Positions 19,321 to 47,148 of a stretch of 64,000 nt of DNA are shown piece by piece. The notes beneath the pieces are model-generated. The model did no database searches, was not told where the DNA came from, and saw only the letters and a program-made list of their open reading frames with translations. Where the stretch lies: positions 2,790,001 to 2,854,000 of the forward strand of contig NZ_CP014209.1 of the NCBI RefSeq assembly GCF_001636295.1, given 5' to 3'. The DNA is from Isoptericola dokdonensis DS-3. Lineage in GTDB: Bacteria > Actinomycetota > Actinomycetes > Actinomycetales > Cellulomonadaceae. Both the position numbers and the translations under genes were made by a program. Each line of letters starts with the position of its first letter. Position 1 is the first letter of the stretch.

Positions 19321-19449
19321 CGGGTGCCCCGCCGTCGGGCCGCGATCCGTCACCCACTGGTTACACGGGGTCATCGGGCCCGAAACGACCGGTGTTTAGC
19401 GTCGACTTAACGCCGACGTCGGCGCACGACCCATCCGAGGAGCTCAGTG

Positions 19450-20964
19450 ATGACGGACGCACCTGCCACGACGGCGCCCCCCGCGCCACCGGCCAAGCAC
19501 CCGGTGGACGAGGTCCCGCGCCTCGCCCGGCTGTTCCCGCTCGGCCTGCAGCACGTGCTCGCGATGTACGCGGGCGCGGTCGCGGTGCCCCTCATCGTGG
19601 GTGGCGCGCTGGGCTACAGCCCGGAGGACATCGCGTTCCTCATCAGCGCCGACCTGTTCGTGGCGGGCATCGCGTCGATCGTGCAGTCGGTGGGCTTCTG
19701 GCGGTTCGGCGTACGCCTGCCGATCATGCAGGGCGTCACGTTCGCGGCGGTCGGGCCGATGATCAGCATCGGCACGACCTACGACATCACGGCGGTGTTC
19801 GGCGCGACGATCGCGACGGGCCTGTTCATGATCCTCGTCGCACCGTTCTTCTCGACGCTGCTGCGGTTCTTCCCGCCGATCGTCACGGGCACGGTCATCC
19901 TCATCATCGGCGTGTCCCTCATGGACGTCGCCGCGGGCTGGATCACGAGCCAGGGGGAGTCCGCGGCGCCGTCCGACATCGGGCTGGCGTTCGGCACCCT
20001 GCTGTTCATCGTGCTGATCGAGCGGTTCGCCCCTGCGGCGATCGCGCGCTGCTCCGTCCTCATCGGGCTCGCGCTCGGCACGCTGGCGGCGCTGCCGATG
20101 GGCAAGGTCGACTGGTCGGGCGTGGGGGAGGCGGGCTGGTTCGCCCTGGTCACGCCGCTGCACTTCGGCCTCCCGACGTTCCCCGTCGCGGCGGTGCTGT
20201 CCATGCTGGTGGTGGGCCTGGTCATCATGGTCGAGACGACGGGCGACATGATCGCCGTCGGCGAGATCGTCGACCGTCCGGTGAGCAAGAAGCGCCTCGC
20301 GGACGGCCTGCGCGCCGACGGCCTGTCCACCATGCTCGGCGGGTTCTTCAACACCTTCCCGTACACGGCGTTCGCGCAGAACGTCGGCCTGGTCAGCCTC
20401 ACGGGCGTCGCGTCGCGGTTCGTCGCGACGATGGCCGGTGCCATCCTCGTCGTCCTCGGCCTCGTGCCGAAGGTGAGCGCCGTCGTCGAGGGCGTCCCCA
20501 GCGCGGTGCTCGGCGGCGCGGGCATCGCCCTGTTCGGCATGGTCGCGGCGTCCGGCATCCGCTCGCTCACCAAGGTGACGTTCACCAGCAAGAACATCCT
20601 CGTCGTCGCCGTCTCCCTGGGCGTCGCGATGCTCCCGACGGTCAAGCCGGAGATCTACGCCGAGTTCCCGACGTGGTTCCAGCTGATCTTCGACTCCGGT
20701 ATCAGCGCCGGTGCGATCACCGCGATCGCGCTCAACCTGCTCCTCAACGGTGACCAGCTCAAGGGTGGCGTGCAGGACACGCAGGACGTCGCCCCGCACG
20801 ACGCGCTCCGTGCCGTCCAGCCCGCCGTCCTGCACTTCGACGCCGCGACCGGCAAGGAGGAGAAGGTCGAGGCGCCGGTGACCGCGACGACGACGGGCTC
20901 CGACCCCGTCGTGGACGGCACCGAGCCCGACCCTGCCGACGACGAGGCCGGTCGCCGTGTCTGA
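19450..20964 (+). CDS. NCS2 family nucleobase (xanthine/urate-type) permease
   Basis: From ATG 19450 the protein has 504 residues; a GTG one codon earlier is also possible. AGGAG lies 8 nt before the ATG. The N-terminal QH motif (GLQHVLAMYAGAVAVPLIVG) and the NAT signature QNVGLVSLTGV, matching QNxGxxxxT(R/K/G), are both present. About 12-14 hydrophobic segments are evident, including LIIGVSLMDVAAGW and VVGLVIMVETTGDMIAVGE. The E in MVETTGD is the conserved substrate-contact Glu. It imports a purine base with protons or sodium across the membrane, most likely xanthine or urate. The last 65 residues are an acidic cytoplasmic tail. No purine catabolism gene adjoins. It ends at the first 20-bp repeat array. 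Confidence 0.88.
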   Translation: MTDAPATTAPPAPPAKHPVDEVPRLARLFPLGLQHVLAMYAGAVAVPLIVGGALGYSPEDIAFLISADLFVAGIASIVQSVGFWRFGVRLPIMQGVTFAAVGPMISIGTTYDITAVFGATIATGLFMILVAPFFSTLLRFFPPIVTGTVILIIGVSLMDVAAGWITSQGESAAPSDIGLAFGTLLFIVLIERFAPAAIARCSVLIGLALGTLAALPMGKVDWSGVGEAGWFALVTPLHFGLPTFPVAAVLSMLVVGLVIMVETTGDMIAVGEIVDRPVSKKRLADGLRADGLSTMLGGFFNTFPYTAFAQNVGLVSLTGVASRFVATMAGAILVVLGLVPKVSAVVEGVPSAVLGGAGIALFGMVAASGIRSLTKVTFTSKNILVVAVSLGVAMLPTVKPEIYAEFPTWFQLIFDSGISAGAITAIALNLLLNGDQLKGGVQDTQDVAPHDALRAVQPAVLHFDAATGKEEKVEAPVTATTTGSDPVVDGTEPDPADDEAGRRV

Positions 20965-21004
20965 CGGCCCGGTCCCGTCGTCGGCGACCTGGTGCGCGGG
21001 TCCG

Positions 21005-21154
21005 CGAGTCGGCGCGCCGTGCCGCGAGTCAGCGTTGCCGGGCACGAGTCAGCGTGACTGGGTGCGAGTCAGCGCACCGTGCCCCGAGTCAGCACTGTTG
21101 GCCGCGAGTCAGCGCTCCTCTGCGCGAGTCGGCGTGCGACGGCGCGAGCAGGCG
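21005..21154 (+). repeat. 20-bp-period array, forward arm (core CGAGTCAGCG)
   Basis: The core CGAGTCAGCG or a close variant begins at 21005, 21025, 21045, 21065, 21085, 21105 and 21125, with a degraded copy at 21145: exactly every 20 bp. About 10-12 bases per unit are conserved and the rest vary. It fills the convergent space between the permease and MFS genes, and is mirrored by an inverted array starting at 21255. Not described in any family I know. Confidence 0.85.
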
Positions 21155-21175
21155 CAGGACCCGCTCGGTCGGTGC

Positions 21176-21239
21176 GATCAGGCTCTGATCGGTGAACTGC
21201 CTGGTCAGGCGGCTGTCCCGACGCGGACCCGGGTCCGCG
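21176..21239. repeat. Three consecutive hairpin palindromes between the two array arms
   Basis: GATCAG-GCT-CTGATC (21176-21190), GCCTG-GT-CAGGC (21199-21210) and CGCGGACCCGGGTCCGCG (21222-21239, perfect 18-bp palindrome) lie in the middle of the array. They probably give bidirectional termination for the converging permease and MFS transcripts (inference). Confidence 0.55.
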
Positions 21240-21254
21240 GCTCGGGCAGCTTCA

Positions 21255-21334
21255 CGCTGACCGGCGGCTGGTCGTGCTGACTCGTCACAGGGTGCGCTGA
21301 CTCGCGCCGACGTGCGCTGTCTCGCGCCCGGAGG
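21255..21334 (-). repeat. 20-bp-period array, inverted arm (core CGCTGACTCG)
   Basis: CGCTGA-type cores begin at 21255 (variant CGCTGACCGG), 21275, 21295 and 21315, again exactly 20 bp apart. They are the reverse complement of the units at 21005-21154, so the two arms could form a very long imperfect hairpin. The array ends 20 bp before the MFS stop codon. Confidence 0.8.
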
Positions 21335-21353
21335 TCTCGCCGTCGGACGCGGG

Positions 21354-22571
21354 TCAGGCCTCGCGGGCGACGACGTCGGCGGCCTGCTCGACGACGCTGA
21401 CGAGCGGCGGGTTGAGGCGCTCCTCGAGCAGCAGGACGACGAGCGCGAGCAGCACGAGACCGGCGCCGACGAGCGGGACGACCCGCACCCCGACGACGGC
21501 GACGAGCAGCGCGCCGAGCGCGGACCCGCCGGCGATGCCGAGGTTGAAGGTGGACGACGCGACAGCCTGGGCCATGGTGGTGCCGCGGGGGGCGACGAGC
21601 ATGACGCGGTGGGACAGCGCGGGCGGGACGGTGGAGAACGAGAGCCCGCACACGACGAGGAACGTGACCGCAAGGATCTTGTTCTCGCCGAACGCCCACA
21701 GCCCGAGGACGCCGACGGCGTAGATGCCGATCCCGGCGAGGAGCGACGCCGCGGGGCGGCGGTCGAGGTAGCGGCCGACGACGATCGCGCCGACGACGCC
21801 GGCGGCGCCCTGGAGCAGCAGCAGGCCGGGGATGTCGGACTGGGTGAACCCGGTGACGTCCTGGAGGTACTGGGTGCCGAACGTGATGACGCCGAACGCG
21901 CCCGTGACGACGAGCACCGTGGTGACGAGCTGGAACCCGAACCGTCGGCCGCTCGGGTGGGGTGCCTGGGCGGCGCCGCCCGCGCGGGGCGCGACGGTGG
22001 GGAACAGGACCAGCACGATCACCATGACGACGGCGGAGAGCGCGGCGACGGCGCCGAAGGTGACGCGCCAGGTCGTGAGCTCGCCGAGCCAGGTGCCGAT
22101 CGGGACGCCGAGGAGCGGGGCGAGGGAGTTGCCGATGGCGAGGCGGGACATCGCACGCCCGCGCACCAGCGGCGGGAACAGCCCGAGGGTGGCGGGCACG
22201 ACCGCGACCCAGAACAGCGCCTGGGCGAGCCCGGTGACGAGCCGAGCCGCCATGAGCTGCTCGTAGGACGGCGTCAGCGCCGCCCACAGGGTGGCCAGGG
22301 AGGCGACGCCGCAGCAGGCGGCGAGCACCCAGCGGCGCGGGATGCGGCTGGTGGCCCAGGCGAGCGGCACGGACGACACGAGGACGACGAGCGCGTACGC
22401 GGTGACGAGCAGGCCGATCTCGGAGGTGCTGCGGCCGAGGTCGGGGGCCATGAGGGTGAGCAGCCCGGACGGCAAGGACTCGACCGTGACGAAGAGGAAC
22501 GTCGAGGTGGCCATCGCGGCGAGGATGATCGTGGCGCGACGGGTGTCGACGGCGGGCTGCTGGGTGGACAT
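21354..22571 (-). CDS. MFS transporter (DHA1 drug/arabinose-efflux type)
   Basis: The 405-residue protein starts at ATG 22571, preceded by TAGAAT 7 nt upstream (leaderless-type). A 66-codon upstream extension runs through the repeat array and is rejected. Twelve membrane spans are evident. The loop 2-3 motif appears as AWATSRIPRRWVL. Transmembrane segment 5 carries the antiporter-like AIGNSLAPLLGVPIGTWLGE. DHA1 members export drugs, sugars or nucleosides using protons. No closer substrate can be given. The gene is enclosed by 20-bp-period repeat arrays on both sides and is divergent from a LacI regulator, which might control it. Confidence 0.88.
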   Translation of the reverse strand: MSTQQPAVDTRRATIILAAMATSTFLFVTVESLPSGLLTLMAPDLGRSTSEIGLLVTAYALVVLVSSVPLAWATSRIPRRWVLAACCGVASLATLWAALTPSYEQLMAARLVTGLAQALFWVAVVPATLGLFPPLVRGRAMSRLAIGNSLAPLLGVPIGTWLGELTTWRVTFGAVAALSAVVMVIVLVLFPTVAPRAGGAAQAPHPSGRRFGFQLVTTVLVVTGAFGVITFGTQYLQDVTGFTQSDIPGLLLLQGAAGVVGAIVVGRYLDRRPAASLLAGIGIYAVGVLGLWAFGENKILAVTFLVVCGLSFSTVPPALSHRVMLVAPRGTTMAQAVASSTFNLGIAGGSALGALLVAVVGVRVVPLVGAGLVLLALVVLLLEERLNPPLVSVVEQAADVVAREA

Positions 22572-22618: not shown

Positions 22619-22750
22619 CGCTGACCGGAGTGATCTTGCGCTGACTCGCGCCGTCGTGCGCTGACTCGCGCCCGCCCGCGCTGACTCGCGCCGTCGTGCG
22701 CTGACTGGCGCCCGCCCACGCTGACTGGCGCCCGCGTGCGCTGACTCGGG
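22619..22750 (+). repeat. 20-bp-period array between MFS and LacI genes (core CGCTGACTCGCG)
   Basis: CGCTGAC begins at 22619, 22639, 22659, 22679, 22699, 22719 and 22739, seven units exactly 20 bp apart. The best-conserved block is TGCGCTGACTCGCGCC; some units read CTGGCG. The orientation equals the inverted arm at 21255. It lies in the divergent promoter space, ending 23 bp before the LacI operator. Confidence 0.88.
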
Positions 22751-45662: not shown

Positions 45663-47102
45663 ATGACCACCGGTGAGGACGCGGCGCCGACCGGCAGCGC
45701 CGCCGTCGACGCGGCCATCGCGCGACTGCGTGCCGTCGCGGCCGAGTCGGGCACGGCCGGCCCGGGCGAGGCGGGCAGCGCCGACGCCGACGTGCTGCGC
45801 ACCGCGCTCGCCACCCTCCCGTACCAGGAGCAGCGACTGCTGTGGGACAGCCACGTCCTCGGCCGCACCCTCGACGGCATCGCCGGGGCGCTCGGGCTGC
45901 ACGTGCGGGCCGCACGCCGCCGCCTGCAGCGCGCCGAGGAACAGCTCGCCCGGGCGCTGTCCGCCGCGCACGCCCGCGGCGTGCCCGCCCGGCTCTGCGC
46001 CGAGACCCGCGGCGACCTGCACGCCTACGTGACCCACCACCTCGGCGGTGGCCGGCGCCAGGCCCTCGAGGACCACCTGTTCGGCTGTCCGGGATGCATG
46101 CGCGCCTTCATCGACGTGCGGGAGGCGTCGTGGGCGCTGCGCGACGCCGCGCCCGTGCTGCTCGCCCCGCTCGCCGCGAGCGGCGTCACCGTGCCCGTCG
46201 TCGTCGGAGCGCTCGGAGCGAGCACCTCGACCGGCGTCGCGGGCTGGTTCGCCGCGCTCGGGGCCGCGCTCGTCGGTGGGTGGGAGTGGGTCGTGCGGGG
46301 TGTGAAGCACCTCGTCGGCCGCCCGGTGGGACTCGCCGCCGGGACGGCCGGGGCGCTCGTGGCCGTCGCCGCCGTGGCGATGTCCCTCGCGCCCGGCGCC
46401 GAACCGGCGCCCGTGTCCGCCGTGGCGACCCCCTCGTCGTCGGCCCCCGCCGGCGAGGAACCCGTCGCGAGCACCGAGCCGTCCGTCGCGCCGACGCCGT
46501 CGGCGACGCCCTCGGCCACGGCCTCCCCGTCGCCCGGCCCCACGCCCACCTCGGAGACGACGCCGACCCCGGACGCCGCCGTCCCGCCGGTACCGGTCGA
46601 GGACGACGACACCCCGGCGGACACCCGTGAGCCCGCCCCCGCGCCCGCGCCCGATGCCGACGACGAGGCGGCCGGGCCCGCGGACGCCGTCGACCCGCCG
46701 CGCACCGGGGGCAGCACCAGCGCACCCCGCCCCAGCACCACCCCCACGCCGGACGGCACCGAGCCCACGACCCGGCCGACGCCGGCGCCCGCACCCTCCG
46801 CCGCGCCGACCGCCACGCCCGACCCCGTCGAGCCGGAGCCCGCACCCGAGCCGACCGAGCCCGTCAGCGTCAGCCTCACCCTGGGCGTCGGCGGCTTCGG
46901 CTGGTTCCAGGTGGTTCCGACCGGCGGCGCGGAGATCGTCGACGTCGTCGGCGGCCACCGCACCGAGGTCACGCAGGACTCGCGCGGTCGCTGGTGGGTG
47001 CGCGCCGTCGGCGCTCGTGAGCGCGAGGTGACCGTCGTCGTCAGCGGCCCCGCCGGCTCCGAACCCGGCGCGCGGTTGTCCTGGTACGGCCTGGAGCACT
47101 GA
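45663..47102 (+). CDS. Sigma region 4 / zinc anti-sigma / transmembrane / Pro-Thr-rich surface fusion
   Basis: The 479-residue protein starts at ATG 45663, 3 nt after CAGCAGGGGGA. Residues 43-104 are a sigma-70 region 4 HTH (LRTALATLPYQEQRLLWDSH; TLDGIAGALGLHVRAARRRL), but no region 2 is present. Residues 116-150 form an anti-sigma zinc finger with H138-LFG-C142-PG-C145 (HxxxCxxC). Membrane segments follow at about 175-205 and 222-244. Then 150 residues of Pro/Thr/Ala linker lead to a small beta domain (VSLTLGVGGFGWFQVVPTGG). It cannot be a normal sigma factor. It may be a membrane DNA-binding sensor or a remodelled anti-sigma factor. Its stop lies in a 20-bp-period array. Confidence 0.8.
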   Translation: MTTGEDAAPTGSAAVDAAIARLRAVAAESGTAGPGEAGSADADVLRTALATLPYQEQRLLWDSHVLGRTLDGIAGALGLHVRAARRRLQRAEEQLARALSAAHARGVPARLCAETRGDLHAYVTHHLGGGRRQALEDHLFGCPGCMRAFIDVREASWALRDAAPVLLAPLAASGVTVPVVVGALGASTSTGVAGWFAALGAALVGGWEWVVRGVKHLVGRPVGLAAGTAGALVAVAAVAMSLAPGAEPAPVSAVATPSSSAPAGEEPVASTEPSVAPTPSATPSATASPSPGPTPTSETTPTPDAAVPPVPVEDDDTPADTREPAPAPAPDADDEAAGPADAVDPPRTGGSTSAPRPSTTPTPDGTEPTTRPTPAPAPSAAPTATPDPVEPEPAPEPTEPVSVSLTLGVGGFGWFQVVPTGGAEIVDVVGGHRTEVTQDSRGRWWVRAVGAREREVTVVVSGPAGSEPGARLSWYGLEH

Positions 47103-47148
47103 CTCGCGAGAGCTTGCGCTGACTCGCGCCGATCTGCGCTGACTCGCG
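47099..47148 (+). repeat. Third 20-bp-period array (core CTGACTCGCG)
   Basis: CTGACTCGCG begins at 47099, 47119 and 47139, exactly 20 bp apart. The first unit includes the stop codon of the sigma/anti-sigma fusion gene and the last reaches the rlmC stop. The array thus fills the whole 46-bp gap of a convergent gene pair. Confidence 0.85.

Follow-up and report, generated by a model that had tools for sequence, protein, structure and literature searches.

What kind of element sets the same short word down at an exact 20-bp step, and then again in mirror image on the far side of a hairpin-forming centre, within a single gap between two genes? This question is raised by positions 20965-21353 of the window (the whole 64-kb stretch of DNA that was analysed), which separate a permease gene from a convergent MFS transporter gene. 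The genome of the window, G000, has a chromosome of 3.83 Mb, and its genes were predicted with a home-made codon-model finder. Arrays pointing left (R) read CGAGTCAGCG on the + strand, and arrays pointing right (F) read CGCTGACTCG. The focal locus and the other arrays of the window comprise the following features.

19447..20964, + strand: xanthine/uracil permease gene, flanking the focal gap on the left (Pfam PF00860, E 1e-97)
21005..21154, - strand: left arm, eight units (CGAGTCAGCG on the + strand) at a step of 20 bp, the final one degraded
21155..21254, no strand: centre between the focal arms, several stem-loops (DNA fold z -4.08)
21222..21239, no strand: 18-bp perfect palindrome within the focal centre, read in the sequence and present as a stem in the fold
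21255..21324, + strand: right arm, four units (CGCTGACTCG on the + strand) at a step of 20 bp
21354..22571, - strand: MFS transporter gene, convergent right flank (Pfam PF07690, E 1e-47), boundaries from the home-made codon-model gene finder
22619..22748, + strand: second window array, seven units, in the divergent gap between the MFS gene and a LacI-family regulator; the ortholog in the nearest species, G141, has six units
47097..47146, + strand: third window array, three units, in a convergent gap

The first-pass annotation of this DNA had described exact repeat arrays, with eight left units of which the last is degraded, and four reverse-complement units facing them. Both counts and the 20-bp spacing hold over 21005-21154 and 21255-21324; the words themselves are not all exact. 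In the left arm CGAGTCAGCG is exact at 21025, 21045, 21065 and 21105, carries one mismatch at 21005, 21085 and 21125, and is degraded at 21145, and in the right arm the unit at 21295 is exact, those at 21275 and 21315 have one mismatch and the one at 21255 is weaker. The claim of three perfect palindromes in the centre reduces to one true palindrome of 18 bp (21222-21239) and other short stem-loops. As DNA, the 100-nt centre folds with a z-score of -4.08, and 0 of 200 shuffles fold as well; no Rfam family matches the window between 20800 and 23000 up to E 1. Across the 64-kb window the 10-base core with one mismatch is found 24 times against 20.3 expected, which is no excess. In the third window array, the first unit contains a TGA that serves as stop codon for the + strand gene ending at 47102.

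The arrays recur throughout the chromosome. An exact two-unit pattern at 20 bp is found 210 times in G000 (113 on the + strand and 97 on the - strand), compared with 0 for the reversed control, and merging of these positions gives at least 56 array clusters, or about one per 68 kb. The 40 array-centred stretches drawn from G000 loci up to 3.0 Mb, together with the window (430 kb in all), contain 90 arrays and 423 units, with 2-14 units per array. As had been described from the focal locus, the unit is conserved only in part and is composed of 13 kept bases (GCGCTGACTCGCG) and about 7 weakly constrained, variable ones, here called the spacer. In these 430 kb, which are centred on arrays apart from the window, 298 of 299 exact cores lie within arrays and one is solitary. 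The first-pass annotation had reserved the possibility of a local duplication for a motif confined to one locus or with a spacing not kept elsewhere; a genome-wide check excludes both, with 657 of 678 steps in G000 and G141 (the G141 positions being incomplete) at exactly 20 bp and 21 at other values. Array calling takes in steps of 18-22 bp only; with the count widened to 14-26 bp, the step is 20 in 281 of 294 cases in G000 and in 280 of 286 in G141. With 10.5 bp to a helical turn, the 20-bp step spans 1.9 turns and not exactly two.

The spacers are less orderly than the lattice. Some arrays are built of identical units, and tandem and 40/60-bp duplications are visible inside arrays. Spacer likeness within arrays is 0.54 between adjacent units, 0.61 between next-nearest units and 0.41 at random. 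Identical spacers are also found at different loci of one genome, with 117 pairs in G000 against a Markov-null mean of 37 and maximum of 82, and 64 in G141 against a mean of 25 and maximum of 49.

Where arrays face each other, the geometry is quantised. In head-to-head junctions, in which F meets R, the distance between cores is 0 bp in 10 of 16 cases, 15-16 bp in five and overlapping in one; at 0 bp the cores touch and form a 20-bp palindrome. Protein contacts would be expected to produce such constant geometry, as would a palindrome that needs to be whole. Tail-to-tail (R-to-F) distances, in contrast, are spread broadly over 7-689 bp (28 cases, one of overlap); three of them equal 147 bp and contain a common hairpin repeat. 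Fourteen R-F centres were folded and are hairpin-sized, at 19-234 bp; with 40 mononucleotide shuffles each, 12 of the 14 give a z of -1.8 or lower and two a positive z.

With respect to genes, 85 of the 90 arrays are assigned to gaps between predicted genes. The 56 gaps with arrays comprise 29 convergent, 21 tandem and six divergent ones, compared with 38, 189 and 61, respectively, among 288 gaps without arrays, in which a few gaps are counted twice where loci L061 and L062 share 2.2 kb without arrays. The convergent enrichment (29/56 against 38/288) has a Fisher p of 1.5e-9. A stop codon lies within 10 bp of 33 of the 76 stop-adjoining arrays. In convergent gaps the outward order, R then F, is observed 12 times and F then R three times, and in other gaps the figures are 4 and 6. 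The direction of an array in a tandem gap has no bias with respect to transcription (15 vs 14), and arrays as a whole have none with respect to replication (47 vs 43); this indifference to both points to a role for the DNA rather than the RNA. One array of nine units (L061:4049-4218) lies within the coding frame of a gene for a DNA/RNA endonuclease (PF01223), whose G134 ortholog is without it, as expected of a tolerated insertion. Two smaller observations concern coding sequence: the in-frame array of L061 translates to a peptide with a 20-residue period, and in ten arrays, namely the one at 47097-47102 in the window and nine others, the TGA of an end unit doubles as the stop codon predicted for the adjacent gene.

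Comparison with G141 separates what persists at these loci from what is replaced. The permease ortholog of G141, 95% identical, adjoins an orthologous pair of arrays, R6 and F4. G141 arrays are found at 25 of the 27 G000 clusters that could be placed (2 clusters are without a counterpart and 32 of 59 are unplaceable), a figure biased upward since the stretches of both genomes were chosen around arrays; a fairer one is that 22 of 37 G141 stretches, one of which was chosen for the focal gene, align to the G000 set, itself array-centred and covering 11% of the genome. The arm pattern is the same in 21 of the 25 clusters with arrays in both species, and the other four differ by one arm. Among the 43 arrays with a counterpart locus, 29 have a same-direction array within 350 bp, eight an opposite one only and six none; the eight, all in two-direction clusters, are read as second arms beyond the 350-bp limit. 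For 38 orthologous array pairs, required to be same-direction and sharing the word between members, the best-offset identity of spacers is 0.481, compared with 0.487 for non-orthologous pairs, and unit counts correlate at 0.15. The nearest flanking alignments of orthologous arrays are 89.6% identical. Array-free gaps are 86% identical (35 gaps; 77% in the convergent subset, n=3) and array-bearing gaps 79% (eight gaps), with an unrelated-gap baseline of 71%; array-free gaps have 0.39 indels per substitution (213 to 540; 37 gaps), in contrast to the near-constant step of the arrays in these two species. With spacers that are unalike and with position and arm pattern retained, it is the place, direction and word of an array that persist, and the rest is replaced.

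The gap downstream of icd extends this comparison to the genus. The icd gene was found in 16 of 18 genus genomes, and the downstream gap is readable in 15 (the G146 contig ends there). Units at 20 bp, in several dialects, occupy this gap in eight of the 15 (G000, G141, G134, G138, G150, G136, G137 and G145, the last with two units only), a count that becomes five of 12 without G000, G141 and G138, whose arrays were the reason for the choice of the gap. Apart from lag-20 marking, the icd gaps were read by eye. G142, G143 and G144 (L278, L276 and L277) have one long hairpin in the gap, its arms carrying units of CGAGATAGAGA type at intervals of about 22 bp. The G135 gap contains a degenerate row, and those of G139, G140 and G147 a hairpin only. 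The G143 and G144 hairpins differ at positions that, by eye, are compensated on the opposite arm. Of 18 array-centred loci from G138 and G134, four, one of them the icd gap, have a counterpart in G000 across the array, and all four counterparts have arrays in those gaps, built on a different word; one further locus aligned partly and 13 are without a counterpart in the G000 set. Two other G000 arrays near the compared loci are absent in G138. At G138 loci L228 and L230, a hairpin repeat with TGTGGGCATG... arms is observed at two positions that bear arrays in G000 but not in G138.

The word itself is narrowly distributed. In pairs, the exact G000 word is found in three of 221 family genomes (210 times in G000, 172 in G141 and once in G161), and among about 85,000 genomes, a collection that may omit the closest records of the window, in five single stretches from four organisms. 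Triple CTACCTCG with up to one mismatch is found in four of 396 order genomes, all of this genus, of which eight members were drawn. The looser four-unit pattern (4 x MCTCG) detects arrays in 13 of the 18 genus genomes and has no match in G135, G139, G142, G144 and G147, so that any function is dispensable or otherwise met in these five. In the family it matches 31 of 221 genomes, those 13 plus 18 from outside the genus that are each matched only a few times; in the latter, controls also match (G009 5 and 5; G010 4 and 6 without a pattern match), and some matches are by eye unrelated repeats. Both CTCG and the 20-bp step are built into the pattern. Controls match inside the genus as well (G141 2, G150 3, G135 1), and at up to 3 mismatches they match 59 and 65 times in G141, which is ascribed to its CTGAGTCG variant. 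In G146, up to 3 mismatches yield 18 and 24 matches, against 0 and 2 for the control, and the word is CCCTGACTCG.

The lineage-specific words consist of CTACCTCG after 3-4 dialect bases, or of CTGACTCG; that of G134 and G138 is TTGCCTACCTCG. Consensus units were tabulated from 13 genomes, 12 of the genus and G125 of another genus, with most loci outside G000 and G141 chosen by the 20-bp pattern, one G149 locus (L219) included in the G148 row, and G145, the thirteenth array-bearing genus member by the four-unit pattern, standing outside the table. The units read CT-AC-CTCG or CT-GA-CTCG, CT-NN-CTCG being common to 12 of the 13 and the fifth base varying in G150; the genomes differ in the 3-4 bases that precede it, and a step of 20 is the commonest in all 13. 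A period scan of eight congeners (800 kb, lags 10-60) also has 20 bp as the main non-triplet period, with nine arrays, five of them in G146 and G150 stretches picked for known arrays, compared with two at 10 bp and two at 40 bp; G009, of another genus, has other periods and none of 20. The arrays are real and occur in the majority of the species sampled from the genus; between species the word differs, but the period is constant and in several cases so is the place.

Among bacterial extragenic repeats, the best known are either palindromes associated with a Y1 transposase or products of local slippage. Similar to REP, BIME and REPIN elements, the arrays are extragenic (85 of 90 in gaps, dispersed and in high copy), clustered and near gene 3' ends, form lineage-specific families and have some palindromic junctions, and their left-pointing CGAGGTAG words include GTAG. 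The unit differs in being a directional direct repeat of 20 bp, mostly non-palindromic, on a strict lattice: in consensus units read by eye from 13 genomes, no stem is present in G134, G138, G136, G137 and G143, and a 4-bp stem is possible in G000 and G150. The Y1 (HUH) transposase, PF01797, is found in 0 of 18 genus genomes and in five of 14 control genomes, including E. coli. With this transposase absent and the units not each stem-loop palindromes, a REP/RAYT system was rejected. CRISPR repeats are 24-48 bp long (PMC3733652) and split by unique, regularly sized spacers. Judged by repeat dimensions, 13 conserved and about 7 variable bases do not make a CRISPR array, and on the features tested the first-pass annotation was right in setting both systems aside.

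A viral link was also rejected: 0 viral stretches carry the G000 word, and two with triple CTACCTCG are plain 10-bp tandem repeats. Iterons are direct repeats of about 20 bp, lined with protein and found beside a rep gene where replication starts; the arrays resemble these and partition sites in unit length, but are spread along the chromosome in at least 56 clusters instead of marking a single origin, with dnaA at 2.665 Mb. Transposon ends with multiple transposase sites and foldback elements also have short-repeat arrays inverted around a centre; the 14 folded R-F centres, in contrast, are only hairpin-sized. A composite transposon was rejected after a scan of four of the seven genes enclosed by outward-pointing arms (with NUDIX, baeRF, GNAT and AbiEi domains) and of the array-bearing endonuclease, none of which is a transposase. 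On the features tested, the arrays are unlike REP/RAYT, CRISPR, iteron and VNTR systems. No published account of such arrays was found in the small part of the literature that was searched.

The preferred reading, put forward tentatively and at a little short of an even chance, is that the arrays are clustered directional sites for a co-evolving, sequence-specific DNA-binding protein of this genus, their content being continually renewed. One putative protein would occupy each 20-bp site and read about 13 bp directly; proteins would stand head-to-tail along an array and head-to-head, at fixed distances, where arrays face. The strict lattice, fixed head-to-head contacts, constant and dialect parts and indifference to the direction of transcription fit such a lined-up protein. 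Among the roles named in the first-pass annotation, a protein-bound or iteron-like site is the best supported. The location at gene ends, chiefly between convergent genes and often flanking a terminator-like hairpin, suggests a possible insulating role for bound arrays between adjacent transcription units. The lost memory of spacers indicates that units are renewed, with a dedicated enzyme as one candidate route and unequal exchange or inter-array conversion as others. Rapid gain, loss and exchange of units would let the whole genomic set follow a change of specificity, and each lineage would come to have its own word without a shift in period or place. More than 50 chromosomal stations carry this directional 20-bp lattice, and from one species to the next its word drifts but its spacing (and often its place, where compared) is retained. 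If a reader protein exists, its specificity would have evolved together with hundreds of sites, and the series of dialects would then be a natural experiment on a protein and all its sites changing together.

Plain selection on binding sites does not predict spacer turnover or the excess sharing of units, so that a copying process may be the primary fact. Selfish or mobile 20-bp units, spread by an enzyme other than a Y1/RAYT transposase, would accumulate where tolerated and expand by tandem duplication, with dialects as successive replacing families. Such spread, possible and on the doubtful side, would account for units shared between loci above the null maximum in both G000 and G141, for unrelated orthologous spacers and poorly correlated unit counts, for arrays present in one species and absent in another, for the array within the endonuclease gene and for the internal duplications; it sits less well with a single exact core outside arrays in 430 kb, with arm patterns kept in 21 of 25 orthologous clusters (the G141 stretches being array-chosen), with quantised head-to-head junctions, and with the lack of a Y1 transposase in all 18 genus genomes and of any transposase among the four scanned enclosed genes. 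It is unlikely, though not far-fetched, that copying and recognition are joined in a genus-wide writer-reader system, in which a dedicated activity would rewrite 20-bp units at fixed gene-end stations using the current word of the lineage and a matching protein would read them. This would explain the lasting stations and direction, the spacers without ancestral memory, the recurrence of distant units and the concerted change of word; a writer, if one exists, would make DNA repeats in a way not known before.

Bidirectional terminators acting at the RNA level, in which base-pairing of the transcribed arms on either side of the hairpin would terminate transcription or shield convergent 3' ends, are distinctly unlikely. 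The random direction in tandem gaps, the six divergent gaps with arrays, the many arrays without a partner arm, the often unequal arm lengths and the two centres of positive z all stand against them, despite the convergent enrichment, the proximity of 33 of 76 arrays to a stop codon, the stable folding of 12 of 14 centres (including the focal one) and the long icd hairpins of G142-G144, with arm differences compensated by eye. Likeness between the two arms of a locus is weak in G000, where the spacers common to both number four against a null mean of 1.2 and maximum of 5; in G141 they number seven (null 0.7, maximum 4), above the null. The convergent terminator, one of the earlier suggestions, is not supported as the sole role, since convergent gaps are enriched and not exclusive and array direction in tandem gaps ignores that of transcription. 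DNA uptake sequences of Neisseriaceae have dialects too, each a short word with a constant and a dialect part in many genomic copies, and are mostly single dispersed words. The arrays share the constant part, copy number and gene-end location, but their words stand in fixed-period rows, with 1 of 299 solitary and about one cluster per 68 kb, and recognition in natural transformation is very unlikely to be their basis. Ordinary local tandem duplication (VNTR), to which the identical units of some arrays might be credited, is scarcely tenable and is refuted as sole explanation by one word at 56 or more clusters at unrelated loci, by a core that is conserved while spacers diverge (0.54 between adjacent units vs 0.61 between next-nearest) and by the 20-bp main period of congeners (nine arrays, five in array-chosen stretches).

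Two further observations concern the chromosome at large. Clusters seem fewer near the terminus (around 0.75 Mb), with eight of 56 in the quarter farthest from dnaA among the clusters listed for G000 and four of 46 among the matches listed for G141. In addition, a second repeat family of ~100 bp, folding into a near-perfect long hairpin, lies between R and F arms at several loci. Its example at L030:4134-4230 has a fold z of -7.2 and a 34-base piece that is exact in L030, L034 and L045, and stable centres that resemble it, by eye or fold only, are observed in L044, L049, L054, L061 and L062.
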